A stretch of 45,730 nucleotides of DNA, from positions 1 to 45,730 of the forward strand of contig JAPLGS010000134.1 in NCBI GenBank assembly GCA_026390015.1, in the 5' to 3' direction. This DNA is from Chloroflexota bacterium (GTDB lineage: Bacteria > Chloroflexota > Anaerolineae > Anaerolineales > Villigracilaceae). How positions within the stretch are numbered: the first letter of the stretch is position 1; the number at the start of each line of letters is the position of its first letter. Shown piece after piece: positions 1,807 through 33,356 of the stretch. The notes under the pieces are model-generated. The model had not been told where the DNA came from. It made no database searches and worked only from the letters and a program-made list of their open reading frames with translations. A program made the translations under genes and the position numbers.

Positions 1807-3060
1807 TTGTCAGAACTACTCGTAGGCCGCCAACCGATCTTAAACAGTTATAAAGAGACCATCGGTTATGAATTGTTGTATCGAGCCTTGCTGACAGACA
1901 CAAACGCTGTGTTTAAAGATGGAAACACCGCCACCTCCCAGATTTTTGCGAACACACTTTTTGAAATGGGGCTGGAAGCCATTGTGGGGCCGCAGCTTGC
2001 TTTTATAAATTTCACAAGAGACTTCCTCGTAAAAGATGATCTGATTCAATTGTTGACAGCAATTCGATCGGAGAACTTTGATCCCAGAAAGATCGTCCTG
2101 GAGGTCTTGGAAGATATAACACTTGATAATGAACTCTTTCAGGCGCTTCATAAATTCAAAAAAAAGAATTTCCAGATCGCGTTGGATGATGTAATTTCTA
2201 TAGATAAGATCGCGCCGATCCTCGGCCAGGGTCTGGTTGATCTGATCAAGATCGATCTGCTTGCTGTAAACAGATCGGATCTTCCTGAGCTGGTAAATTC
2301 AATTAAACAACACGGCATTCTCTTGCTGGCCGAAAAGGTGGAAACGCTGCAGGATTTTTCAATTTGCCTGGAACTGGGATTTGATTTCTTTCAAGGGTAC
2401 TTTTTCTATAAACCAGAGACCATAAAAAATAAAAATAAAAAAATGGATGTATCGCGTCTAAGTCTTATGCGCTCCCTGGCGGCCACCATGGATACCCAGA
2501 CCAGCTTCCACGTTTTAGACCCGATCATTTCCCAGGATATCGGCCTGAGTTACAAACTGCTGCGCCTGGTGAACTCCGGTTATTATTCCCTGGCAGATCA
2601 GGTCAAATCCATTCAACAGGCCATTGCCATGATCGGCCTGCAGCAACTCCGCAGCTGGATGATGCTTCTTATGATGGCAACCGTGGATGACAAGCCGCAT
2701 GAACTGACAGCGACGGCCCTTCAGCGCGCAAAGATGTGTGAAATGCTTGGAAAAGCGCTGAGAGACCGGCACGCCGAATCATATTTCCTGATCGGCCTAC
2801 TCTCCGTTTTGGATGCCATCATGGATCTTCCGATGGTTCAGGTGGTTGAGAGTCTGTCGCTTACCGCCGAAATCACTGAAGCACTGATATATCGGAAAGG
2901 AAAATTGGGCCTGGCGCTGAGTGCTGTGATCGCAACAGAGGGCGGCGATTGGGATCCCATTTTACAACTGGGGATCAAACCGCATGTCTGGCGGAATATA
3001 TATTTTGAGTCCGTGAAAAGCACCACTCTTATTATGAATGAAGTACACGCGGCGCAATAG
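1807..3060 (+). CDS. EAL-HDOD (YuxH-type) c-di-GMP-related signalling protein
   Basis: A 417-residue cytoplasmic protein with an EAL phosphodiesterase domain (residues 1 to about 195) followed by an HDOD domain (about 215-400). The EAL signature reads ELL within IGYELLYR, and most acidic catalytic positions appear retained: Asn in INFT, Glu in LEVLED, the DD pair in ALDDV, Lys in IKID, Glu in AEKVET, and Gln in FFQGYFF. c-di-GMP hydrolysis is therefore possible, although this family is often thought to act as a sensor or scaffold. The start is TTG at 1807, chosen for its GGGAGG site six bases upstream. A structured leader precedes it. It sits beside a chemoreceptor and the flagellar genes, so a switch between motility and sessile life is a reasonable inferred role. 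Confidence 0.88.
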   Translation: MSELLVGRQPILNSYKETIGYELLYRALLTDTNAVFKDGNTATSQIFANTLFEMGLEAIVGPQLAFINFTRDFLVKDDLIQLLTAIRSENFDPRKIVLEVLEDITLDNELFQALHKFKKKNFQIALDDVISIDKIAPILGQGLVDLIKIDLLAVNRSDLPELVNSIKQHGILLLAEKVETLQDFSICLELGFDFFQGYFFYKPETIKNKNKKMDVSRLSLMRSLAATMDTQTSFHVLDPIISQDIGLSYKLLRLVNSGYYSLADQVKSIQQAIAMIGLQQLRSWMMLLMMATVDDKPHELTATALQRAKMCEMLGKALRDRHAESYFLIGLLSVLDAIMDLPMVQVVESLSLTAEITEALIYRKGKLGLALSAVIATEGGDWDPILQLGIKPHVWRNIYFESVKSTTLIMNEVHAAQ

Positions 3061-3178: not shown

Positions 3179-3808
3179 TTGGCAGACTTTTTATTACAGA
3201 CATCCCATGAGGCATTCGTGATTTCCTTTGAGTATGTAACTCTCGAAACAGAACAATTGCAATTTGAGCAAAAAGGATCGCAAATTGAGCAAGGGGAACT
3301 ACAAACAATCCTGCGGCCATCTGTGACTGCGCCTGTCGCTGAGATAAAGCTTGAAGAGCAAAACCTCTCAACAGATAGGGGAGTCAGTGAAATCGTTGAG
3401 TTGGAATCTGAACCGCAGATCTCATACGAGCTGTCGTATTCCTGCTTGTTAATTCCCCGTTTCCCAGATCATTATCTGGCTGGTGATATCACGGAGGATC
3501 TGCCCAATTGGGTAAGACAAATTTGCATCTCATACAGCTGGCGGCTGGATGATATTATGATTCGGCCCGGACACCTTCAGTGGGTCATGACAGTTCCCCT
3601 CACTGTAAACCCGGCCCAGTTCATGCGGATCATACGTCAGCTATCTTCGCAGAAAATATTTGAGTACTACCCCAGATATTCACGTAAAAATCTCTCCGGC
3701 CAATTCTGGTCTCCTGGGTTTTTGGTTGTCCCCGGAAAACAGCTTCAATCTATGGAGGTGATCAGCAATTTCATCCTTCAAACACGCAAACAGCAGGGAA
3801 TTTACTAA
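3179..3808 (+). CDS. Exapted IS200/IS605 TnpA-like (Y1 transposase) domain protein, catalytically dead
   Basis: A 209-residue protein whose residues from about 83 to the end align by eye with the small Y1 (HUH) transposase TnpA, including the strand after YELSYSCLL, the block around IMIRPGHLQW, the helix with RIIRQLSSQKIFEYYP, and the FWSPGF block. The HUH motif is reduced to H132-L-Q134, and the position of the catalytic Tyr is F198. Strand cleavage is thus not expected; DNA or RNA binding may remain. The first 80 residues are an acidic, Gln- and Glu-rich extension not seen in TnpA. The TTG at 3179 has only a distant AGGA site; a GTG at 3218 with GAGG five bases upstream is a good alternative start. 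A TATACT box at 3172-3177 would favour the GTG. No insertion-element ends were seen, so it is a resident gene rather than a live element. Confidence 0.72.
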   Translation: MADFLLQTSHEAFVISFEYVTLETEQLQFEQKGSQIEQGELQTILRPSVTAPVAEIKLEEQNLSTDRGVSEIVELESEPQISYELSYSCLLIPRFPDHYLAGDITEDLPNWVRQICISYSWRLDDIMIRPGHLQWVMTVPLTVNPAQFMRIIRQLSSQKIFEYYPRYSRKNLSGQFWSPGFLVVPGKQLQSMEVISNFILQTRKQQGIY

Positions 3809-3946: not shown

Positions 3947-3973
3947 TAAAGATTTCACCAATACTGCCGACTC
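3947..3973 (+). promoter_or_regulatory. Sigma-28 (FliA) promoter for the DUF1521 gene
   Basis: TAAAGATT (3947-3954), exactly 11 bases, then GCCGACTC (3966-3973). The classical FliA consensus is TAAAGTTT-N11-GCCGATAA; the -35 matches seven of eight positions, and the -10 keeps the GCCGA core. It lies 33 bases before the ATG at 4007, which has a GGGAGG ribosome site. This ties the next gene to late flagellar expression. Confidence 0.8.
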
Positions 3974-4006: not shown

Positions 4007-4969
4007 ATGAGTAACGTTACATCGGTTGATATATCCAATTTAATGGTGGCACGTCGTCTGATGGAAATTGAAAAAAACGCCGCACTGCGCCGCAGCGGAA
4101 AACAAGTGGAGGATAAATCAGCGCTGGAATATTTTGAAGAAGATCAGGCATTTATCAGCGACCCTGCCCAGTCTGCTCAAAATCAGGGTTCCAAGCCTTT
4201 GCCGCCAATTGACAATATCAACATTAATTTAGCTGACTCGCAGAAAGTGACAACAGATCGCAGAAACGCCGCGAAGCCAGGAACACTTCCTGCCCAGGAA
4301 AATAATGTTGAAGAGGGATTCACCGTAACAGGCACTCAGAGCGTGGAGATCAAGTTGGAATTACGCATCCGATCAAACACCGCGCTGGAAGGCCTGGTGG
4401 TTCACGATCAGAATTATGCCGAATCAGACCGCTACCTTTTCAAATTTGCCGATGGCGCCACCTTCACAATTTTCGACAAATGGAGCAATAAAAGCACCAC
4501 CGTTTGGGGCGACCCGCATGTGGATGTCGATGATGTAGCCGGTAATAATAATGGAGACTTCAAAGACTTAAAATCCAGCGACGACTTTACAACCTTTATG
4601 TTGTTGGATGGCACGCGCGTGACCTTCAAGGCACAGGATGCTGGAATTATCGAACAGGTGGATATCTTCAAAGGGGCACAACATGTGATCGGAGTTGGTG
4701 CGGCTTCCAAGGATTTTTCACCCGAAAGCGGACTTTTCTCAAATCAGGTTTTGGAAAACGGGGCGTTTGTTGCGAACAAGACTTCCATCGGCGATCTGGT
4801 CTTCGCTGGCGGTGATGGAAATGACTGGTTCGACTCCAGCAACAAACTGATCTGGGGCAAGACCACTGGCGCGGTAATTACTCAACGTCCGCTGGCCACA
4901 TTAGAGTTTTACTATAGACAGACTGTTTCGCAATCCATAAGCATGCAAACGATTGTAAAAACCGCGTAG
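4007..4969 (+). CDS. DUF1521 / MIIA-type protein with a GDPHVD self-cleavage motif
   Basis: A 320-residue protein. Residues 1-50 are helical and charged, 51-100 are a low-complexity linker, and about 105-320 form a beta-rich domain of DUF1521 type. The sequence VWGDPHVDVDD (G168-D169-P170-H171) matches the GD-PHVD site where the related domain of the rhizobial type III effector NopE1 cuts itself when calcium is added. The adjoining Asp- and Asn-rich stretch (173-187) could bind the metal. No signal peptide is visible, which fits export through a type III apparatus, possibly the flagellar one. It stands alone behind a sigma-28 promoter, between a TnpA-derived gene and the flbD operon. Function in this organism is unknown; the domain assignment rests on the motif and its surroundings. 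Confidence 0.75.
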   Translation: MSNVTSVDISNLMVARRLMEIEKNAALRRSGKQVEDKSALEYFEEDQAFISDPAQSAQNQGSKPLPPIDNININLADSQKVTTDRRNAAKPGTLPAQENNVEEGFTVTGTQSVEIKLELRIRSNTALEGLVVHDQNYAESDRYLFKFADGATFTIFDKWSNKSTTVWGDPHVDVDDVAGNNNGDFKDLKSSDDFTTFMLLDGTRVTFKAQDAGIIEQVDIFKGAQHVIGVGAASKDFSPESGLFSNQVLENGAFVANKTSIGDLVFAGGDGNDWFDSSNKLIWGKTTGAVITQRPLATLEFYYRQTVSQSISMQTIVKTA

Positions 4970-5233: not shown

Positions 5234-5452
5234 ATGATTTTTCTTACCCGTACCAATGGTATTAGTTTTTATATAAATCCAGAGTTAATCCAAACTGTGG
5301 AATCGACACCAGACACGATCGTCACGCTGGTGAACAACAAAAAATTGCTGGTTAAAGATACCCCTCAAGAAATTGCCGAGCGTTTTATTGAATACCGGCG
5401 AAAAACCCTGGCGCCATTCATCTCACAAAAACCAGGCACCGTTTCTTTATAA
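5234..5452 (+). CDS. flbD: FlbD family protein
   Basis: A 72-residue protein of the small FlbD family found at the head of flagellar operons in Gram-positive bacteria, spirochaetes and relatives. It begins MIFLTRTNG and contains the typical NPELI and TPDTIVTLVNNKKLLVKDTP blocks. Its molecular role is not settled in the family. A GAGGAAA site precedes the ATG. It is the first gene of the unit and lies 27 bp before motA, the usual order. Confidence 0.93.
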   Translation: MIFLTRTNGISFYINPELIQTVESTPDTIVTLVNNKKLLVKDTPQEIAERFIEYRRKTLAPFISQKPGTVSL

Positions 5453-5479
5453 TACTAAATGGAAATTCAGGAGTAGTTC

Positions 5480-6313
5480 ATGGATATTGCGACCATCTCG
5501 GGTTTGGTCTTGGCTCTTACTGTAATTGTTGTCGCGTTGATTATGGATGGCGGCTCGCCCGCAGAATTATTTGCTGCTCCCGCCGCGCTGATCCTGATCT
5601 TCGGCGGGTCACTCGGAGCTACGATCATCACCTCCCCGATGAGACTGGTACTCAAACTGCCAAAATACATTGCGCAGGCGTTTACCACAAATAAGTACGA
5701 TACCAAGGGAACCATTGATCTTTTGAGCAAACTGGCTGACAAAGCGCGCCGTGAAGGTCTGCTTGCGCTGGAAGAAGACAGCCGCAAGATCGATGATAAA
5801 TTCCTTCGAAAAGGAATCATGATGGTGGTGGATGGCGTCGACCCTGAACAGGTGTCATCCATCATGGAAACCACAGTCGCACAAATGCGAGCCCGCCATA
5901 AGGAAGGCATGGGATTCTTTACCGCGGCCGGCGCATTCGCTCCAACTTTCGGCATTATCGGAACAGTGATGGGGTTGATCAGCGTCTTGAAACAATTGGA
6001 TAACCCAGGCGCGCTCGGCGAGGCGATCGCCACCGCATTTTTAGCAACGTTATGGGGTCTGCTATCAGCAAACTTGATCTATTTGCCCATCGCTGGAAAG
6101 CTAAAAGCAAAAGATGAAGAAGAAGCTCGTAATCGCTATATGCAGTTGGAGGGTATTCTCTCCATTCAGGCTGGCGAAAATCCACGCATTGTACGCGACA
6201 AGTTGACCGCCTATCTGGCACCGGCAGATATCAAGAGCGATGAAGAAGGCGAGAAAGCCAAGGGCTCTGAAAAGAAACCAGCCGCAGTCAAAGCTGAGAA
6301 GGCGCAAGCATAA
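5480..6313 (+). CDS. motA: Flagellar motor stator protein MotA
   Basis: Inner-membrane stator subunit that with MotB couples ion flow to rotor torque. The 277-residue protein has two N-terminal membrane segments, a large cytoplasmic loop with the charged ADKARREGLLALE segment that contacts FliG, and two C-terminal membrane segments around PTFGIIGTVMGL and GEAIATAFLATLWGL. The conserved prolines of the channel region are present. The C-terminal 35 residues are a Lys/Glu/Ala-rich tail, longer than in most MotA proteins. AGGAG lies upstream of the ATG, and motB starts two bases after the stop, so the pair is translationally coupled. Confidence 0.96.
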   Translation: MDIATISGLVLALTVIVVALIMDGGSPAELFAAPAALILIFGGSLGATIITSPMRLVLKLPKYIAQAFTTNKYDTKGTIDLLSKLADKARREGLLALEEDSRKIDDKFLRKGIMMVVDGVDPEQVSSIMETTVAQMRARHKEGMGFFTAAGAFAPTFGIIGTVMGLISVLKQLDNPGALGEAIATAFLATLWGLLSANLIYLPIAGKLKAKDEEEARNRYMQLEGILSIQAGENPRIVRDKLTAYLAPADIKSDEEGEKAKGSEKKPAAVKAEKAQA

Positions 6314-6315
6314 TT

Positions 6316-7086
6316 ATGGCACATCGAGCAGAAGAACACGAAGAACATCATGATGAACGCTGGCTGGTGAGCTATGCAGATTTCATTACCCTGTTGATGG
6401 TTTTGTTTGTCGTTCTTTATTCCATGAGTCAGGTGAATGTTGAGAAGTATAAGATCCTGGCCACAAGCATGCGCTCAGCCTTCGCTCTTGGCGGACCGTC
6501 TCAAGTGGTGGATAGTCAGATCAATCAGTCTGGCGGCACAAGTGAAGACGGAACATCCAAGCCGATAGTTGTGCCGGGTATTCCCGAAGGCCCAACTCAA
6601 TCGGAGGAAGTCGCCGGACAATTGACAGCCATGCTTTCTTCACAGAATCTTGGTAATCAAGTTAGCGTCCAGACCAATATCGAAGGTGTGTTGATCTCTC
6701 TGAGCGAACGCCTGATTTTCAAGAATGATCAGGTAGAACTGCCCGCCGAATCTTTGCAGGTGCTCGATACCATTGTGGAAATGCTGCGCCCGATCAACAA
6801 CAAGGTTCGGCTCGTTGGGCATACCAACAACACGCCGTCCACTAACCCAAGTTATCCAACAAATTGGGAGTTATCGTTAGCGCGTGCTGCATCCGTTGCA
6901 AAATATTTGATCAATGCCGGTGTTGCCCCTGAGCGGCTGATCATTTCCGGGCAGAGTGAATATGCGCCGGTGTTCCCAAATGACACTGAACAGCATAAAA
7001 ATTTGAATGCCCGTGTGGAAATTGTGATCATTTATAAAGTAGACAGCAATATGATAGACATCAATTCCCCTGTCATTCTGCCGTAA
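6316..7086 (+). CDS. motB: Flagellar motor stator protein MotB
   Basis: The 256-residue partner of MotA. A His/Glu-rich cytoplasmic start is followed by one membrane helix carrying the proton-accepting Asp (D22 in SYADFITLLMV), a plug and linker, and a C-terminal OmpA-like peptidoglycan-binding domain (about 130-245). In that domain the usual GHTD is GHTN and the usual NRRVEI is NARVEI, two departures at peptidoglycan-contact motifs, while the NWELSLARA block is intact. It lies between motA and fliL; a palindromic repeat copy separates it from fliL. Confidence 0.95.
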   Translation: MAHRAEEHEEHHDERWLVSYADFITLLMVLFVVLYSMSQVNVEKYKILATSMRSAFALGGPSQVVDSQINQSGGTSEDGTSKPIVVPGIPEGPTQSEEVAGQLTAMLSSQNLGNQVSVQTNIEGVLISLSERLIFKNDQVELPAESLQVLDTIVEMLRPINNKVRLVGHTNNTPSTNPSYPTNWELSLARAASVAKYLINAGVAPERLIISGQSEYAPVFPNDTEQHKNLNARVEIVIIYKVDSNMIDINSPVILP

Positions 7087-7137
7087 TGGGCAAAAGGCCT
7101 CCTGCATAAGAGGCTACAGCCCACAGGGTAATAAGTG

Positions 7138-7194
7138 CACAGAGACCTTTGAGATAAGACTCTTAAACCTCGGTTTTTCTCAGTGCTCTCTGTG
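7138..7194 (+). repeat. Dispersed imperfect palindromic repeat, copy A
   Basis: CACAGAGA (7138-7145) pairs with TCTCTGTG (7187-7194). The interior shares CTTAAAC and CGG words with copy B at 32408-32476, in the same order and orientation. Together they look like members of a mobile or REP-like intergenic family. Here it sits between motB and fliL, within the operon, and would form a hairpin in the transcript. Confidence 0.5.
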
Positions 7195-7262
7195 GCAGAA
7201 GAGACTTTCGCAAGAGCTCTAAAACATAAATCAGTTCAAGCTTGCTTTTGAATCGGAGTCAT

Positions 7263-7850
7263 ATGGTAGATAAAATCTTAAAAATCCTTAATATCATCAC
7301 ACAGGTAATTTTGTTAATTACGGCTTTTGTTTCGATTTTTACAGCCTATATTATCTTTGCTCCTGATGAACTTCCAAAACCTTTTCGCCTGCAATATCAG
7401 TACGAAACCGCGTTCACGACACCGGTTTCTGGAGCTGCGGAACCGGCAGTAGGAGAGGTCACTCCCGCGCCTGAGGCGCATAATTACATTCCTGGTGAAG
7501 GCATCATGCTTAATATGTCCACCAAGATCATCAATCTGGTCGATCCGGGTGGGCGAAGATATATACGGCTGACCGTTGTTGCAGAGTTTGCGCCGGACAA
7601 TCCGGAATATGAATTACTACCAGAAGCGGAAAAGACAGCGTATCTAGCACTGTTTAATGAAAAGCTCAATTCGCGCCTGCCCATCATGGATGACACCGTG
7701 ATCACACTACTCTCCACCAAAACCTACGAGGACCTCTATACGGCCGATGGCAAGGAAAAGTTGCGAATGGAAATAATGGAAACCCTAGCCAAAAAACTTG
7801 TTGACCTGCATATCCTTTCTATCTATTTTACAGAATTCGTGGTTCAGTAA
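7263..7850 (+). CDS. fliL: Flagellar basal body-associated protein FliL
   Basis: A 195-residue single-pass membrane protein that surrounds the stator in other bacteria. One membrane helix lies at about residues 10-32; the outer domain follows and contains GIMLNMSTKIINLVDPGGRRYIRLTV-type sequence and ends in a Phe-Val-Val-Gln tail, both typical of FliL. The ATG at 7263 is chosen over the upstream TTG at 7242 because GGAG lies just before it and because the product then starts with a short charged segment. It is followed four bases later by fliM. Confidence 0.9.
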   Translation: MVDKILKILNIITQVILLITAFVSIFTAYIIFAPDELPKPFRLQYQYETAFTTPVSGAAEPAVGEVTPAPEAHNYIPGEGIMLNMSTKIINLVDPGGRRYIRLTVVAEFAPDNPEYELLPEAEKTAYLALFNEKLNSRLPIMDDTVITLLSTKTYEDLYTADGKEKLRMEIMETLAKKLVDLHILSIYFTEFVVQ

Positions 7851-7853
7851 ATC

Positions 7854-8894
7854 ATGTTAGCTCAATCAGAAATTGATGCTTTATTATCTGGCGCGATCAA
7901 CATCAGCCAGAAGAACGGCGAGGAAGGTGTTAACCTGGCTGAAATAATGAATCAGCCGGGCGAGAGCGCCAAGTCGAAGGCCAGCGGGGAAAAGAAAATC
8001 CAAACTTATAACTTCTGGTCACCCGCCAGGTTCTCAAAGGAACAAATGCGCGCGGTTGAGCTGGTGCACGAAGATTTGAGTGAACGGTTGACAACATCTC
8101 TTCCAACTTTTTTGCGAACCAATGTGCGCCCGCGTCTGGTTCTCATGGAGCAGGGCCGTTTCCATGACTTCCTCAAGGATTTTCCAGACCACACATTGTT
8201 CCACTTAATTTCACTCGCGCCCCTGCCCGGCCATATGGTGCTGACCTTGAGCCTTAATGTGAGTTATTTGATCCTGGAGCAGCGCCTTGGCGGAAAGATC
8301 GAGGGTCGTTTCACGGAGCGTACATTGACCGAAATAGATCAATCCCTTTTGCGTGGAATGGTGGAACACATGCTTGGTGATGTGAAAAGCGCCTGGAGCA
8401 AAGTCGTTTCCCTCGAGCCGTCTTTGGAAGACAGCACGATCAACCAGCATTGGGTACAGATGATGATGGGAAATGAGCGCGTTTTGTTGATCGCCATTGA
8501 AATTAATATCCAGGGCGTTACAGGCACCATGAGTATTTTTATCCCCTTTAATACTCTTAAGCCGATCGCTGATGTTCTTAACCCCCACATCTGGATCGCA
8601 GGACGCAAGGAAAAACAACAGGATCCGATCGCTCGTCAGGCGGCGATCCAGACCATGATGAAAGCGATCATCCCAATTAAGGTGATCCTGGGAAATGCGG
8701 AACTGACGTTGAAAGATCTTGCAAACCTTTCAATTGGAGATGTGATCGAACTGGATCAAAATATTGACAACCCATTGGTGGTGCAGGTGGCGAACAAAAA
8801 ACAATTCATGGCCAATGTCGGAAAATCTCGTAAGCGGATGGGCGTTCAAATTACCGGAGTGTATCGTCAGTACGATGAAGTTCAAACAGGATAA
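7854..8894 (+). CDS. fliM: Flagellar motor switch protein FliM
   Basis: C-ring switch subunit, 346 residues. The N-terminal LAQSEIDALLSG is the CheY-P-binding peptide. The middle CheC-like domain (about 50-240) includes YNFWSPARFSKEQ and the LGGKIEGRF segment; the C-terminal SpoA-like domain (about 265-335) interacts with FliN. No strong ribosome site precedes the ATG, which lies three bases after the fliL stop, suggesting coupling. The window has separate fliM and fliN, not the fused FliY of Bacillus. Confidence 0.96.
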   Translation: MLAQSEIDALLSGAINISQKNGEEGVNLAEIMNQPGESAKSKASGEKKIQTYNFWSPARFSKEQMRAVELVHEDLSERLTTSLPTFLRTNVRPRLVLMEQGRFHDFLKDFPDHTLFHLISLAPLPGHMVLTLSLNVSYLILEQRLGGKIEGRFTERTLTEIDQSLLRGMVEHMLGDVKSAWSKVVSLEPSLEDSTINQHWVQMMMGNERVLLIAIEINIQGVTGTMSIFIPFNTLKPIADVLNPHIWIAGRKEKQQDPIARQAAIQTMMKAIIPIKVILGNAELTLKDLANLSIGDVIELDQNIDNPLVVQVANKKQFMANVGKSRKRMGVQITGVYRQYDEVQTG

Positions 8895-8909
8895 TCTAGC
8901 AGAGGTCAA

Positions 8910-9263
8910 ATGGAAAACATAAATGACGAAATTCAAGAAATGCCAGTCAGCAGGATCCAAGACGGCGCAGCTGAAAAGCCCGTTCGAAAACCGGAAATAA
9001 GCAATTTATCAAATATAGAATTTCTCATGGACGTTTCACTGCGGGTCACGGTCGAACTGGGACGTACTCGGATGCAGCTGGCCCGGATCATCGAGTTGAA
9101 ACATGGCTCCGTGGTTGAGTTGGATCGGCTCGCAGGAGATCCGGTGGATGTTTTTGTGAATGACCATATGGTGGCCCGCGGTGAAGTTGTTGTCGTGGAT
9201 GATAAATTTGGCGTTCGCATCATTGAAATGGTCTCGGCCAACGGCGAGAAGGTTGCTCCCTAA
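8910..9263 (+). CDS. fliN: Flagellar motor switch protein FliN
   Basis: A 117-residue C-ring protein with a roughly 40-residue variable lead and one SpoA domain: FLMDVSLRVTVELGRTRM, the LKHGSVVELDRLAGDPVDVFVN block, and ARGEVVVVDDKFGVRI, all diagnostic. AGAGGTC precedes the ATG. Its stop overlaps the fliO start by one base. Confidence 0.96.
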   Translation: MENINDEIQEMPVSRIQDGAAEKPVRKPEISNLSNIEFLMDVSLRVTVELGRTRMQLARIIELKHGSVVELDRLAGDPVDVFVNDHMVARGEVVVVDDKFGVRIIEMVSANGEKVAP

Positions 9264-9784
9264 TGCCTGGAATAATGACGATCATCAGAAAGTGGCTGGA
9301 AACCAGCAGTAAAAAGCAAAAGCTGATCGTTGCCCTGCTTATTATCGGTTTTCTCATTACGGGTGTGCTTCTATCTTTGGGCGGCGCTTCGCAGACCACC
9401 AATGATCCGCTGGGCTCCACTCCATTTTATTATGTGAGCGCCTTTGTGAAATTGATCGGGGTATTACTGTTGATCGTCGGCAGTTCTGTGCTTTTTCGAC
9501 GCTGGCTGCAACTTGGCCCGAATGGAAAGATAAACCGTCAAATGCGCCTGCTCGAAACAGTCAGGTTATCTCCAAAGCAGGCGCTTCACTTGATCGTCAT
9601 CGGCGACCAAAAGCTATTGATCGGAGCCACGGATCAAAATGTTTCCCTGATCGCTGCGGTTGAATACAATGAAGCTCCCGTTCCAGCCGCGCAAGATCAA
9701 ACTCAACAGGGTTTGGATTTTGGTACAGTGCTTCAATCTTTTAATTTCAAGCTGCCCAGTGAGAATTTAAAAGGAAAGGGATAG
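9263..9784 (+). CDS. fliO: Flagellar biosynthesis protein FliO
   Basis: A 173-residue membrane protein that helps assemble FliP in the export gate. Two membrane segments are seen, at about 20-40 and 55-75; the two-segment form differs from the one-segment enterobacterial protein. The cytoplasmic domain carries the RLLETVRLSPKQALHLIVIG motif typical of FliO. The start codon overlaps the fliN stop. FliO is divergent, and the call rests on this motif and on position between fliN and fliP. Confidence 0.88.
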   Translation: MPGIMTIIRKWLETSSKKQKLIVALLIIGFLITGVLLSLGGASQTTNDPLGSTPFYYVSAFVKLIGVLLLIVGSSVLFRRWLQLGPNGKINRQMRLLETVRLSPKQALHLIVIGDQKLLIGATDQNVSLIAAVEYNEAPVPAAQDQTQQGLDFGTVLQSFNFKLPSENLKGKG

Positions 9785-9793
9785 AGATCAGCC

Positions 9794-10618
9794 ATGTTTG
9801 AAAGTAAGCTTTCCAAAAAGGGATCGAAAATATTCAAAGCGGCGGCAAAGCGATACGGCAAGCCGTTCAATAAAGGATTCATTTTTATTTTTATCCTGCT
9901 AATTTTCGGCGTGTTGTTGAGCGGATGTTCAACCGCCCCCGGAGTTTCATTGACAGTTGATTCGCAGTCGCCAGACCCGAAACAAGTCACGTCAGGTGTG
10001 CAGTTACTGGTGCTCATGACCATACTTTCCCTGGCTCCGAGCGTATTGATCCTGTCCACTTCTTTTACCCGGATCGTTATTGTATTGTCTATGTTACGAA
10101 ACGCGATCGGTACGCCCTCCATTCCACCCAATCAGGTTCTGATCGGGCTTTCTCTGATCCTCACTTTTTTCATCATGGCTCCTGTTTATAAGCAAATGGA
10201 TAAAGAGGCCATCCAGCCTTTCATCAATGAACAAATAGACCAGAAGACCGCGCTGACGCTGGCGCAAAAACCGATCCGTGAATTCATGTTCAAGCAAACG
10301 CGGGAAAAAGACATTCAACTATTCCTGGAGTTGGGGAATGAACCCCAGCCAGTCACCATTGACGATATCCCCACTGTATCTTTATTCCCGGCTTTTATTA
10401 TCAGTGAACTGCGCACAGCCTTCACCATGGGATTCGTCCTTTATATTCCCTTCCTGGTCATTGACCTGGTCGTTTCAAGCATCCTGCTTTCGATGGGTAT
10501 GATGATGCTGCCGCCTTCATTGGTATCGCTGCCGTTCAAGGTGCTGCTCTTTGTAATGGTGGATGGCTGGTATTTGATCGTTCGAAGTTTGGTTTTGAGT
10601 TTCACGGGTACCTCGTGA
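9794..10618 (+). CDS. fliP: Flagellar type III export protein FliP with a lipobox-like N-terminus
   Basis: Export-gate channel subunit, 274 residues. The core from about residue 70 is standard: VLILSTSFTRIVIVLSMLRNA, the PPNQVLIGLSLILTFF block, and the C-terminal MMLPPSLVSLPFKVLLFVMVDGW region. The N-terminus is odd: a 28-residue basic lead, a hydrophobic run, then L-L-S-G-C with the Cys at position 45, a perfect lipoprotein signal-peptidase II motif. FliP is normally made with an ordinary cleavable signal. No alternative start in the right place removes this part. It precedes fliQ by five bases. Confidence 0.95.
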   Translation: MFESKLSKKGSKIFKAAAKRYGKPFNKGFIFIFILLIFGVLLSGCSTAPGVSLTVDSQSPDPKQVTSGVQLLVLMTILSLAPSVLILSTSFTRIVIVLSMLRNAIGTPSIPPNQVLIGLSLILTFFIMAPVYKQMDKEAIQPFINEQIDQKTALTLAQKPIREFMFKQTREKDIQLFLELGNEPQPVTIDDIPTVSLFPAFIISELRTAFTMGFVLYIPFLVIDLVVSSILLSMGMMMLPPSLVSLPFKVLLFVMVDGWYLIVRSLVLSFTGTS

Positions 10619-20039: not shown

Positions 20040-20771
20040 ATGTCATCTTCACTTTTTCACACGCTTAACATTTCACGTCAGGATATTCTTGGACGCCTGA
20101 ATGCACTGGATGTGACCAGCAATAACCTGGCCAACATCAATACTGCCGGATATAAGACCAACCGTTCCAATTTTCAGGAAATTTTCAGCCAGCAACTGAA
20201 GGAAGGCGCGCAGTTGAAAAACACCCAATTGCAGACGGCACAGGGTAATTTGCGCGATTCCACCAATCCCCTGGATTGGGCGGTCCAAGGTGAAGGTTTT
20301 TTTAGTGTAACTCTGCCAGATGGGACAATTGGATATACCCGTGATGGACAGTTTGGCCTCGACGCAGACCTCAAACTGGTGACAGCCGGCGGCTATCCAC
20401 TGATTTGGGACGGAACGATTGTCGATGGGATGAAGGATATTAATATCAGCCAGGAAGGAAAAGTAACTGCGTTGGATGCAAAAGGTATTAGCGTCGCAGT
20501 GGGCACTGTCCAATTGACTCGATTTCCCAACCCCAGCGGAGTCACCAGCCGAGGCGACAATATCCTGCTGGAATCTGATGCTTCCGGCGCAGCCCAGGTA
20601 GGCGCCGCCGGAGCGGAAAATTACGGGACGATCAACGCCTATAGGGTCGAACAATCTAATATAAATATAGCCAGGGAAATAACCCAGCTCAAATCGGTCA
20701 CCATGTCTATCAAAGCCTTCCAACAGACCGATACAATGATCTCCCAGGCGATCAACCTGCGCAAGGCGTAA
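20040..20771 (+). CDS. flgG: Flagellar rod protein, FlgG family (FlhP-like)
   Basis: The second rod gene, 243 residues. It has SRQDILGRLNALDVTSNNLANINTAGYKTNRS at the N-terminus, VQGEGFFSVTLPDGTIGYTRDGQF in the middle, and a C-terminal coil with VEQSNINIAREITQLKSVTMSIKAFQQTD. Such pairs (FlhO and FlhP) make the rod in monoderm bacteria. Its stop codon is part of the flgM sigma-28 promoter -35 box. Confidence 0.88.
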   Translation: MSSSLFHTLNISRQDILGRLNALDVTSNNLANINTAGYKTNRSNFQEIFSQQLKEGAQLKNTQLQTAQGNLRDSTNPLDWAVQGEGFFSVTLPDGTIGYTRDGQFGLDADLKLVTAGGYPLIWDGTIVDGMKDINISQEGKVTALDAKGISVAVGTVQLTRFPNPSGVTSRGDNILLESDASGAAQVGAAGAENYGTINAYRVEQSNINIAREITQLKSVTMSIKAFQQTDTMISQAINLRKA

Positions 20772-20795
20772 TGTTTTCAAAGAAACAGCCGATAA
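20769..20795 (+). promoter_or_regulatory. Sigma-28 (FliA) promoter for flgM
   Basis: TAATGTTT (20769-20776), exactly 11 bases, GCCGATAA (20788-20795). The -10 is a perfect match to the FliA consensus and the -35 differs at one position of eight. It begins at the stop codon of the upstream rod gene and lies 41 bases before the flgM ATG. Confidence 0.85.
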
Positions 20796-20836: not shown

Positions 20837-21133
20837 ATGAAAATTGAAAATAACAACTTATTGCCACTTTCAGCCAAACCAACTGAAGTTACCCCTCCGG
20901 TCGAAAAGAAGGATGACCACAACGGGGTAAGTTCTGTTCGGTCCGGACAGGATCGAGTGGAAATGTCAGAGAACGCGCGCTTGTTAGCCAAAGCGCGGAC
21001 TGCCCTCGGGAATGTGGATGAAACCGACTCCCAACGTCTCCTTATGCTCAAAAATCAGATCGCGAGCGGAGATTACACAATTCAGGTGAGTGAACTCGCC
21101 AGGAAATTAATGGCAACATTGTTTCCGAAATAA
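20837..21133 (+). CDS. flgM: Anti-sigma-28 factor FlgM
   Basis: A 98-residue protein that binds FliA until the hook is complete and is then exported. The first half is low in complexity and likely disordered. The C-terminal half has RVEMSENARLLAKARTALG and LLMLKNQIASGDYTIQVSELARKLMATL, the standard sigma-binding helices. A GCAGGAG site precedes the ATG. The gene has its own sigma-28 promoter, giving negative feedback on sigma-28. Confidence 0.93.
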   Translation: MKIENNNLLPLSAKPTEVTPPVEKKDDHNGVSSVRSGQDRVEMSENARLLAKARTALGNVDETDSQRLLMLKNQIASGDYTIQVSELARKLMATLFPK

Positions 21134-32569: not shown

Positions 32570-32890
32570 GTGGAAGGCTACCAACTAGGTAACCTTCAAG
32601 TTAAACCAATTAACCTTGAAGTTAAACCAATTAACTTTCAAGTTAAACCAATTAACTTTGAAGTTAAACCAATTAACTTTGGAGTTAAGCCAGGTAACTT
32701 TGGAGTTAAGCCAGGTAACTTTGGGATTAAGCCAGGTAACTTTGGAGTTAAGCCAGGTAACTTTCAAGTTAAGCCAGGTAACTTTGGAGTTAAGCCAGGT
32801 AACTTTGGAGTTAAGCCAGGTAACTTTGAAGTTAAGCCAGGTAACTTTGAAGATAAGCCAGGTAACCTTGAAGTATCACCGACAAACTGA
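32570..32890 (+). CDS. Possible repeat-encoded heptapeptide protein
   Basis: A 106-residue open frame made almost wholly of the 21-bp array, so the product is a seven-residue repeat (V-K-P-G-N-F-G and variants). It starts at a GTG with GAGG abutting, which is too close to be a good ribosome site, and stops right before the terminator. Because the repeat unit is 21 bases with few stop codons, several frames stay open, including a longer plus-frame (32616-33254) that reads L-S-Q-V-T-L-E heptads. Coding is therefore unproven. Confidence 0.28.
   Translation: MEGYQLGNLQVKPINLEVKPINFQVKPINFEVKPINFGVKPGNFGVKPGNFGIKPGNFGVKPGNFQVKPGNFGVKPGNFGVKPGNFEVKPGNFEDKPGNLEVSPTN
32582..32875 (+). repeat. Tandem array of fourteen 21-bp direct repeats
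   Basis: Units run end to end without spacers. Unit form is AAGCCAGGTAACTTTGGAGTT (units 6-14) or AAACCAATTAACTTTGAAGTT (units 2-5), with unit 1 degenerate. The two sequence types are grouped in blocks rather than mixed, and changes are concentrated at the same positions. The period equals two helical turns. It ends five bases before the flanking frame's last codons and 18 bases before a terminator. Confidence 0.93.
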
Positions 32891-32892
32891 AA

Positions 32893-32928
32893 AAAAAGAC
32901 GGCTTAATCAGAGTTAAACCGTCTTTTT
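32893..32928 (+). terminator. Bidirectional terminator between the array and the MmpS-like gene
   Basis: AAAAAGACGG (32893-32902) pairs with CCGTCTTTTT (32919-32928); inner TTAA words can extend the stem. A-runs on the left and T-runs on the right allow use on both strands, ending the che unit from the left and the small minus-strand gene from the right. Confidence 0.8.
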
Positions 32929-32957
32929 ACTCAATGAAGCGGACAGCGGGAAATGCT

Positions 32958-33356
32958 TCAGGGCACGATCCCGGCGCAGGCGACACCATTTTTGGGGGTG
33001 CTGATCGTTTCTGTTTTCCAGGCTTTATTCTCCAGAAAAATATTGCAGGTGATCTCGCCGGTCGCGGTTGGGTTGGATGCCGTCAGATAGACCGTCGTGC
33101 CGCTTTTAACTCTTATGGTGCGCGTCCAGGGCGCGGTGACGGTGGTTGGTTCGGGCATGTTCACTGTCCCGGCCCGCAGGGTGATGCTTGCAAATCCGCC
33201 GGAGGCTTGCACCTCAAAGCGTACACTGCTGCTGCTGTTCTTGACCGGCCTTGATGCGATCAAATAATTCAAGAGGAGAAGTGCGCCGGCACATAAGGCT
33301 AATACAAAAATTGCTTGAAGCGCGTTCTTCTGGCCATTAGACAGATTATTAAACAT
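32958..33356 (-). CDS. MmpS-like membrane-anchored protein
   Basis: A 132-residue protein with one N-terminal membrane helix (about 13-34), a short Ser-rich linker, and a beta-rich outer domain. The domain shows the pattern of the MmpS fold: a strand with VRFEVQASG, a PWTRTI segment, TTVYLTASNP, and GEITCNIFLENK with a second Cys near the end that could form a disulphide. In actinobacteria such domains partner MmpL transporters; none is nearby, so only the fold is claimed. GAAGGAGA lies before the ATG. It is convergent with the 21-bp array. Confidence 0.65.
   Translation of the reverse strand: MFNNLSNGQKNALQAIFVLALCAGALLLLNYLIASRPVKNSSSSVRFEVQASGGFASITLRAGTVNMPEPTTVTAPWTRTIRVKSGTTVYLTASNPTATGEITCNIFLENKAWKTETISTPKNGVACAGIVP

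Follow-up and report, generated by a model that had tools for sequence, protein, structure and literature searches.

A transposase fold that has lost its chemistry lies beside a flagellar gene cluster in the window, the 45,730-nucleotide stretch of Chloroflexota DNA analysed here. The protein in question, dT, is encoded at 3218–3808 on the forward strand, and its residues 83–205 have the fold of an IS200/IS605 TnpA (Y1) transposase. To judge from sequence comparison across related genomes, dT is an offshoot of a polA-linked protein composed of receiver, Roadblock and TnpA domains, a relationship invisible from one window. The reading favored here, to which we assign a probability of about one half, is that dT is a domesticated, catalytically dead TnpA that serves as a non-catalytic adaptor, either sharing a partner with that parent protein or dimerizing with it.

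Results

Gene start and acidic tail

The frame at 3179–3808 (+) is open in the window and extends back to a TTG at 3179. The start of the dT gene is probably the GTG at 3218 and not this TTG, since a GAGG-N5-GTG arrangement, of which only the N5 varies, is kept in 8 of 8 aligned loci of the flagellar type (type B below); the putative ribosome-binding site GAGG lies at 3209–3212 (+), and the product from the GTG is 196 amino acids long. Residues 14–82 (3218–3424, +) form an acidic tail with a net charge of −10 that is largely predicted to be disordered: in the AlphaFold model, built on a 73-row alignment, 60 residues have pLDDT below 50, nearly all of them within residues 1–75. The TnpA-fold domain follows at residues 83–209 (3425–3808, +) with a net charge of +4, and the whole protein comes to −6. 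The sequence-only reading had described an acidic extension of 80 residues; low pLDDT and charge (−10) confirm that the extension is real, while the probable start at 3218 shortens it to about 69 residues.

TnpA fold and loss of the catalytic motifs

The Pfam Y1_Tnp model (PF01797) matches dT residues 83–199 with E = 3e-12 (47.2 bits, cutoff 23), the NCBIfam IS200 model scores 48.5 bits, below its cutoff of 55, and a PDB profile search matches 2ec2 (E = 1.3e-14). The modelled domain has pLDDT above 90 over most of residues 83–209. Foldseek places TnpA-type transposases at ranks 1–29, with the REP transposase 4er8 at rank 30, and VIA-align returns Z scores of 16.3 for 2fyx, 16.0 for 2ec2 and 15.8 for 2xo6 (ISDra2 Y132F), against at most 7.9 for 4er8 (7.9) and unrelated folds. 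The sequence-only reading had proposed a Y1 domain along residues 83–209 and had staked it on a structural match to TnpA; the Pfam match and a fold that extends over 83–205 bear the proposal out.

Motifs were compared in an alignment of 133 domain rows, 4 from genuine TnpAs and 129 from others. Left out of the counts were L001 and L003 (duplicates of the window and of L063), identical domains, and the short rows L004–L023, 10 of which 20 are places without a later equivalent under a G handle. In this alignment the HUH motif of dT is degenerate, reading H-L-Q (H132-L133-Q134; 3572–3580, +), and the position of the catalytic tyrosine is occupied by phenylalanine (F198; 3770–3772, +), both as had been read from the letters. 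HxH and Tyr are present in all 4 genuine TnpAs and occur together in 0 of the 129 related domains; HxH without Tyr occurs in two of the 129 (L025 and L124), both with Phe. At the Tyr column the related domains divide into 75 with Tyr, 50 with Phe, 2 with Met and 2 with Leu, and none of the Tyr rows belongs to the flagellar clade. By-eye counts over the 17 distinct flagellar-type sequences give Phe 14, Met 2, Trp 1 and Tyr 0, the Trp row being L185, which is badly aligned at its end, and HxH in one of the 17. The latter is L025, an orthologue of the window protein that is H-L-H by letter and has Phe at the Tyr position, so that no orthologue with both HUH and Tyr intact was found among these 17 and the dead motifs recur as the sequence-only reading had anticipated. 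From these column counts, loss of the metal motif is near family-wide, whereas loss of the tyrosine is complete only in the flagellar type.

Two further features of genuine TnpAs were followed in the alignment rows. The class-1 Y1 signature is given as ‘Y---Q’ in the accessible text of PMC6006769; its Gln position is T202 in dT, and Gln is present in only two of the 4 genuine TnpAs. The basic stretch that follows strand 1 in genuine TnpAs reads F-P-D-H in dT. In the three gaps examined around the dT gene, the only inverted repeat is an imperfect one of 9 nt in the upstream gap, the two gaps downstream having none. The same genome also holds a real TnpA beside a TnpB, with HSH and Tyr and 99.9 bits to PF01797.

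Association with flagellar genes

Downstream of dT lies a run of flbD, motA, motB, fliL, fliM, fliN and fliP (5234–10618, +), in which Pfam matches for FlbD, MotA, MotB, FliL, FliM, FliN and FliP, together with synteny, substantiate the adjacent flagellar operon named by the sequence-only reading; the run also spans an ORF at 9263–9784 outside the Pfam set. The gene next after dT (4007–4969, +) encodes a DUF1521 protein (PF07481, E = 3e-7) and is found downstream in 11 of the 17 flagellar-type genomes, in 2 of these across a contig break. The name DUF1521 is reportedly linked to self-cleaving NopE1-type effectors, and the protein is possibly a flagellar export substrate. Upstream of dT is an EAL-HDOD protein gene (1807–3060, +; Pfam and synteny). 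The usual upstream neighbor in flagellar-type loci is an MCP or CheW gene, and EAL-HDOD in three; among the other flagellar-type loci fetched, a similar EAL-HDOD gene stands upstream only in L024 (on the same contig as L084) and L185.

FliM (E of 1e-20 or better) was found in 17 of 152 family genomes, and a flagellar-type copy is present in exactly these 17 and in 0 of the 135 without FliM. A copy was called flagellar-type at an identity of at least 54 per cent and at least 156 bits, a line set after the list had been seen, the next match being a long form at 151.8 bits. For independent genomes the chance of identical sets would be 1 in C(152,17), or ∼7e-23, although these genomes share ancestry and linkage. 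The 17 span four genera, three of which also include genomes without FliM; two 37-genome genus sets, which both give the same 7 genomes out of 37, share members with the 152-genome sets and are not independent of them.

In keeping with the expected synteny with fli genes, 13 of the 17 genomes have the copy on the same contig as motA-motB-fliL-fliM and upstream of that run, at times with 1–3 genes between. Contig ends intervene between the copy and the motA run in two others (G002, G424), and in the remaining two (G843, G850) the copy is elsewhere: on the assembled contigs it does not adjoin motA, and its retention there speaks against pure linkage. Six flagellated genomes of other families in the order (G038, G041, G046, G048, G050, G052) have no flagellar-type copy, and thus a flagellum as such does not require it. 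Given that, in the related genomes searched, the copy is found only where there are flagellar genes, the old TnpA fold has probably been repurposed for motility.

Selection and transcription

Purifying selection on the dT domain is clear. Against L024, dN/dS is 0.18 for the domain, 0.29 for the whole protein and 0.72 for the tail (few sites), and against L025 it is 0.07 for the domain, a comparison in which dS has reached 1.7; change in the tail is faster than in the domain. Of the exaptation advanced by the sequence-only reading, a kept fold, lost motifs, purifying selection, and flagellar synteny and co-occurrence are supported.

A sigma-28-like site, TAAAGATT-N11-GCCGACTC, stands before the DUF1521 gene (3947–3973, +) and matches 13 of 16 positions of the sigma-28 consensus, a score equalled by 0 of 500 Markov resamples of the gap. 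Sites scoring 13–14 of 16 lie 3′ of the dT gene in five of seven loci (the window, L024, L025, L026, L028); in the stretch after the dT gene L027 scores 12 and L088 scores 10, but 15 in a longer stretch. Upstream of the dT gene the best score is only 11 of 16, and sigma-28 control of the dT gene itself was rejected on that ground. The site after the gene suggests a separate transcription start there, and since none better than 11 of 16 precedes the gene, dT is probably its own transcription unit. A sigma-70 scan near the gene gave 5 promoter-like sites against 4.1 expected, one of them on the plus strand, in the gap before flbD; terminator-like sites numbered 5 against 2.1 expected, all on the minus strand, and L026, L027, L028 and L088 have, by eye, differing terminator-like hairpins in the gap after the dT gene.

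The whole window contains 3 sigma-28-like sites with at most three mismatches, against 0.86 expected. A stronger one (1 mismatch) lies at 20769–20795, at the end of a flagellar hook/rod-like ORF and before a start codon near 20838. Elsewhere in the window, the ORF at 32616–33254 carries tandem LSQVTLE/LNQLTLK-like heptad repeats and may be a coiled protein or no gene.

The polA-linked parent protein

The window genome has two further homologues, of 539 and 187 amino acids. The long form (type A) opens with a receiver domain, continues through a Roadblock-fold domain and an acidic linker, and ends in a dead TnpA. Pfam receiver matches in type A reach E = 1.6e-13 (L054), 7.9e-12 (L073) and 3.4e-7 (L065), with weak ones at 0.0045 (L048) and 0.23 (L003). 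Of 88 aligned parents, 85 retain the receiver Asp (4 of 92 rows lacked the cut pattern and were left out), and 73 of the 88 have the Lys, a count biased upward because K-P-F was among the patterns used to cut the stretch. The middle domain, modelled by AF2 at a mean pLDDT of 85.2, has a predicted Roadblock fold: p14/LAMTOR2 and MglB head the Foldseek results, in which the 50 rows listed bear the names MP1-p14, Ragulator/LAMTOR, EGO complex, MglB or Roadblock, except for two that are named only as human heteromeric complexes. A profile search with this domain also put MglB at the top, weakly (E = 0.065), and Pfam Robl_LC7 matched 2 of 57 parent members (best E 0.097).

Typing by neighbors of 144 loci, some counted twice as the G handle and the named contig of one genome, gave 97 of type A (polA at most four genes downstream), 13 of type B, 15 of type C and 19 untyped, including the 4 genuine TnpAs. 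Type A (L003, L044–L063, L091–L163) is usually directly upstream of polA, which was identified by Pfam in one locus (L061) and by BLAST elsewhere. The family matched in 51 of 61 related genomes. Class-wide, matches occur in 85 of 396 genomes, genuine TnpA included, and 20 of these regions were examined: they include 13 long ORFs from six other families with a Roadblock and a dead domain by HMM and a receiver-like N terminus (Pfam run on two), and polA adjoins 8 of the 13. A search of the phylum for the Roadblock domain found it in 38 of 400 genomes, the four outside the class being weak (26–31 bits). Named contigs from the genome scan, in the best 80 of 140 matches, are labelled Chloroflexi or Chloroflexota and include Anaerolineae and Anaerolineales MAGs. 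By these matches the parent is a protein of Anaerolineae-type Chloroflexota.

Some polA-linked relatives have no dead domain. L176 and L177 are receiver-Roadblock genes, and L178 and L179 Roadblock-only genes, all directly upstream of polA, so that the dead domain was either added to a polA-linked gene or dropped from one. A beta-clamp-like motif was found in 0 of 91 parent linkers. Among deep type A members, L065, L068 and L073 have long acidic linkers in which T-R-x-[LF]-D-D-like motifs recur, and these motifs resemble docking or phospho-Thr sites. A scan of viral contigs for the family gave 25 pattern matches and 0 confirmed; plasmid matches comprise 16 records at 20–29 per cent identity, 15 annotated as IS200/IS605 transposase and one unannotated.

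Free-standing offshoots

The flagellar type (nine labelled and two unlabelled rows) is one clade in the tree, with support of 100/100. Its sister group, at 98/84, comprises two unlabelled rows and all but one of the 15 type C rows, the fifteenth (L139) joins at 95/95, and types B and C are all nested among long forms. The tree is midpoint-rooted on few columns, drew long-branch warnings and is unsure in its deep branches; because genuine TnpA falls among the deep parents and not outside them, it was used solely for the flagellar clade and its sister. From this nesting the flagellar copies look like a spun-off C-terminal domain of the long form, and, types B and C being joined, one spun-off domain may underlie both. 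The type C operon (L030–L041, L002) encodes an Mrr-like nuclease, a TPR protein, a GAF-histidine kinase, and MraZ-like and AAA-like proteins (Pfam on members), as well as a response regulator (by eye). Its Mrr-like nuclease matches the PADLOC candidate PDC-S02, and the two dT proteins tested gave no PADLOC defence match.

Discussion

Within this order the constraint on the dead domain has moved to other residues. Nine residues (C89, H98, W111, W135, N171, S173, R203, Q206 and G207) are near-invariant in the order-level rows of types A (82), B (11) and C (15), the lowest conservation among them being that of N171 and S173, each kept in 12 of 15 rows of type C; in the 4 genuine TnpAs these positions are mostly different. 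Since these residues are common to the long form and the free copies, we propose that the dead TnpA domain would now act as a binding module, and that the flagellar copy would either bind whatever partner the C-terminal domain of the parent binds or, by way of the former TnpA dimer face, pair with that domain itself. The two subunits of a TnpA dimer share their active sites, with which the title of a 2005 study by Ronning agrees, and pairing of a free copy with its parent would thus be a natural possibility; the one line of evidence that points to the dimer or shared-partner step is the shared conservation. The 13 deep parents from other families keep few of the new residues (W111 in 5 of 13, H98 not among the commonest, R203 in 11 of 13), so any such docking code would be order-level and not class-wide. 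In functional terms, the flagellar copy would couple the receiver-Roadblock signalling protein to the assembly of the flagellum or to motility, and the disordered acidic tail would tune or tether this contact.

A wider history can be put forward tentatively, and we hold it as possible without thinking it probable. A dead transposase may long ago have been fused onto a polA-side receiver-Roadblock protein and have become a core Anaerolineae-type signalling module; the free copies it later gave rise to would link other systems to this module, one group serving the flagellum and one the two-component operon with the Mrr-like nuclease, the old dimer face or hairpin site being the common docking code.

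The main rival to the adaptor reading, somewhat unlikely in our estimate, is that dT is a regulator whose dead domain still binds an ssDNA or RNA hairpin, with repression or activation of flagellar genes as the outcome. Hairpin binding is the ancestral role of TnpA in the accessible text of PMC8266576, and a Phe in place of the Tyr is no bar to binding, since the structure of 2xo6, a Tyr-to-Phe TnpA among the best structural matches, is of a DNA complex. Flagellar-type domains carry a mild positive charge, between +1 and +5 in each of 9 rows; R94, R153 and R203 are nearly invariant in types A, B and C, with R122 weaker at 10 of 15 type C rows; the 4 genuine TnpAs all have Lys where dT has R94 and R153; and the gene sits at a flagellar locus. 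Against these stand the acidic domains of deep relatives (11 of 13 at −3 to −10, the other two at 0 and +1), the net charge of the whole window protein, the replacement of the basic stretch after strand 1 by F-P-D-H, and a window with no Rfam match. A conserved-hairpin test around the dT gene gave a consensus energy of 0 for the real and all shuffled alignments alike and hence had no power. The sequence-only reading had called dT a nucleic-acid binder and suggested a repressor of flagellin; charge pulls both ways on the former (−6 for the protein, yet +4 for the domain with its conserved Arg), and neither proposal has found support so far.

Two further accounts deny dT a role of its own at the locus. 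That it is a neutral passenger travelling with the flagellar cluster would suit the fast tail (0.72 against L024 on few sites) and the linkage to motA-fliM in 13 of 17 genomes, but it sits poorly with the low dN/dS of the domain (0.18 and 0.07), with the retention of the copy in G850 and G843 and with its presence only alongside FliM among the 152 genomes, and we consider it improbable. A working or recently decayed IS200/IS605 element is scarcely credible: the Pfam family is named ‘Transposase IS200 like’ and the long-form relative L061 exceeds the NCBIfam IS200 cutoff (55.6 against 55), but HUH and Tyr are gone, synteny is conserved, the domain is under purifying selection, the neighbors tested are not TnpB, and the real TnpA-TnpB pair elsewhere in the same genome provides the contrast. 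On motifs, selection, synteny and that pair, an active or decayed element is ruled out.

The ‘dead’ Y1 family to which dT, a domesticated transposase, belongs has a recurring architecture, polA synteny, purifying selection in its flagellar clade and an offshoot that tracks FliM one for one in the 152 genomes. This suggests that not TnpB alone but also the TnpA half of an IS605 element can become a cellular part. What a dead TnpA binds becomes testable with small proteins. There is also a practical consequence, in that a conserved signalling gene can be misannotated as an IS200 transposase, as the long-form gene L061 would be. A survey of TnpA-Y1 proteins retained 722 of 924, namely those that carry HuH as well as Y, and read missing core motifs as a mark of non-functional proteins, according to the accessible text of PMC6006769. 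The text of an exaptation review (PMC8987985) does not contain the term TnpA, and a search of titles and abstract openings, in which subscription journals are thinly covered, found no account of a dead TnpA joined to a receiver domain or associated with polA or with flagella.

Among known systems, the TnpAs of IS200/IS605 elements (IS608, ISDra2) share with dT the fold over residues 79–207 (Z up to 16.3) and sequence homology. Unlike them, dT has neither HUH nor Tyr, has other residues near-invariant, carries an acidic tail, and stands in conserved chromosomal synteny with no TnpB among the neighbors tested. TnpA-REP (RAYT) proteins resemble dT in being chromosomal, domesticated, low-copy Y1 proteins, TnpA-REP being presented as the first domesticated prokaryotic transposase and one that cleaves REPs (PMC8266576, PMC6006769, accessible text). 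As described there, domesticated Y1 transposases of this kind carry HuH and Tyr and process REPs, whereas dT and its family have not kept the catalytic residues. An identity of dT with RAYTs is ruled out by the NF047646 score (19.6 bits against a cutoff of 80) and by HuH and Tyr not being intact; 4er8 also fits worse in structure (Z 7.9).

The sequence-only reading had further drawn a parallel to the TnpB-derived repressors of flagellin (TldR), of which the shared kind of origin and the flagellar neighborhood stand and nothing beyond those two. TldR is derived from TnpB. To our knowledge no guide RNA is known for the window dT protein, and the Rfam scan of the window, which gave no match, does not test for one. 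In the accessible text of PMC13418256, which covers TldR, it is like dT an exapted IS605-family protein linked to flagella, but it is RNA-guided and phage-encoded, whereas dT has no TnpB domain (Pfam finds only Y1_Tnp). The Roadblock proteins MglB and LAMTOR, finally, have a fold like that of the parent's middle domain by Foldseek (3cpt, MglB 6hjm and others). The window protein itself has no Roadblock domain; in its parent, unlike in MglB and LAMTOR, the Roadblock is fused between a receiver and a dead TnpA.
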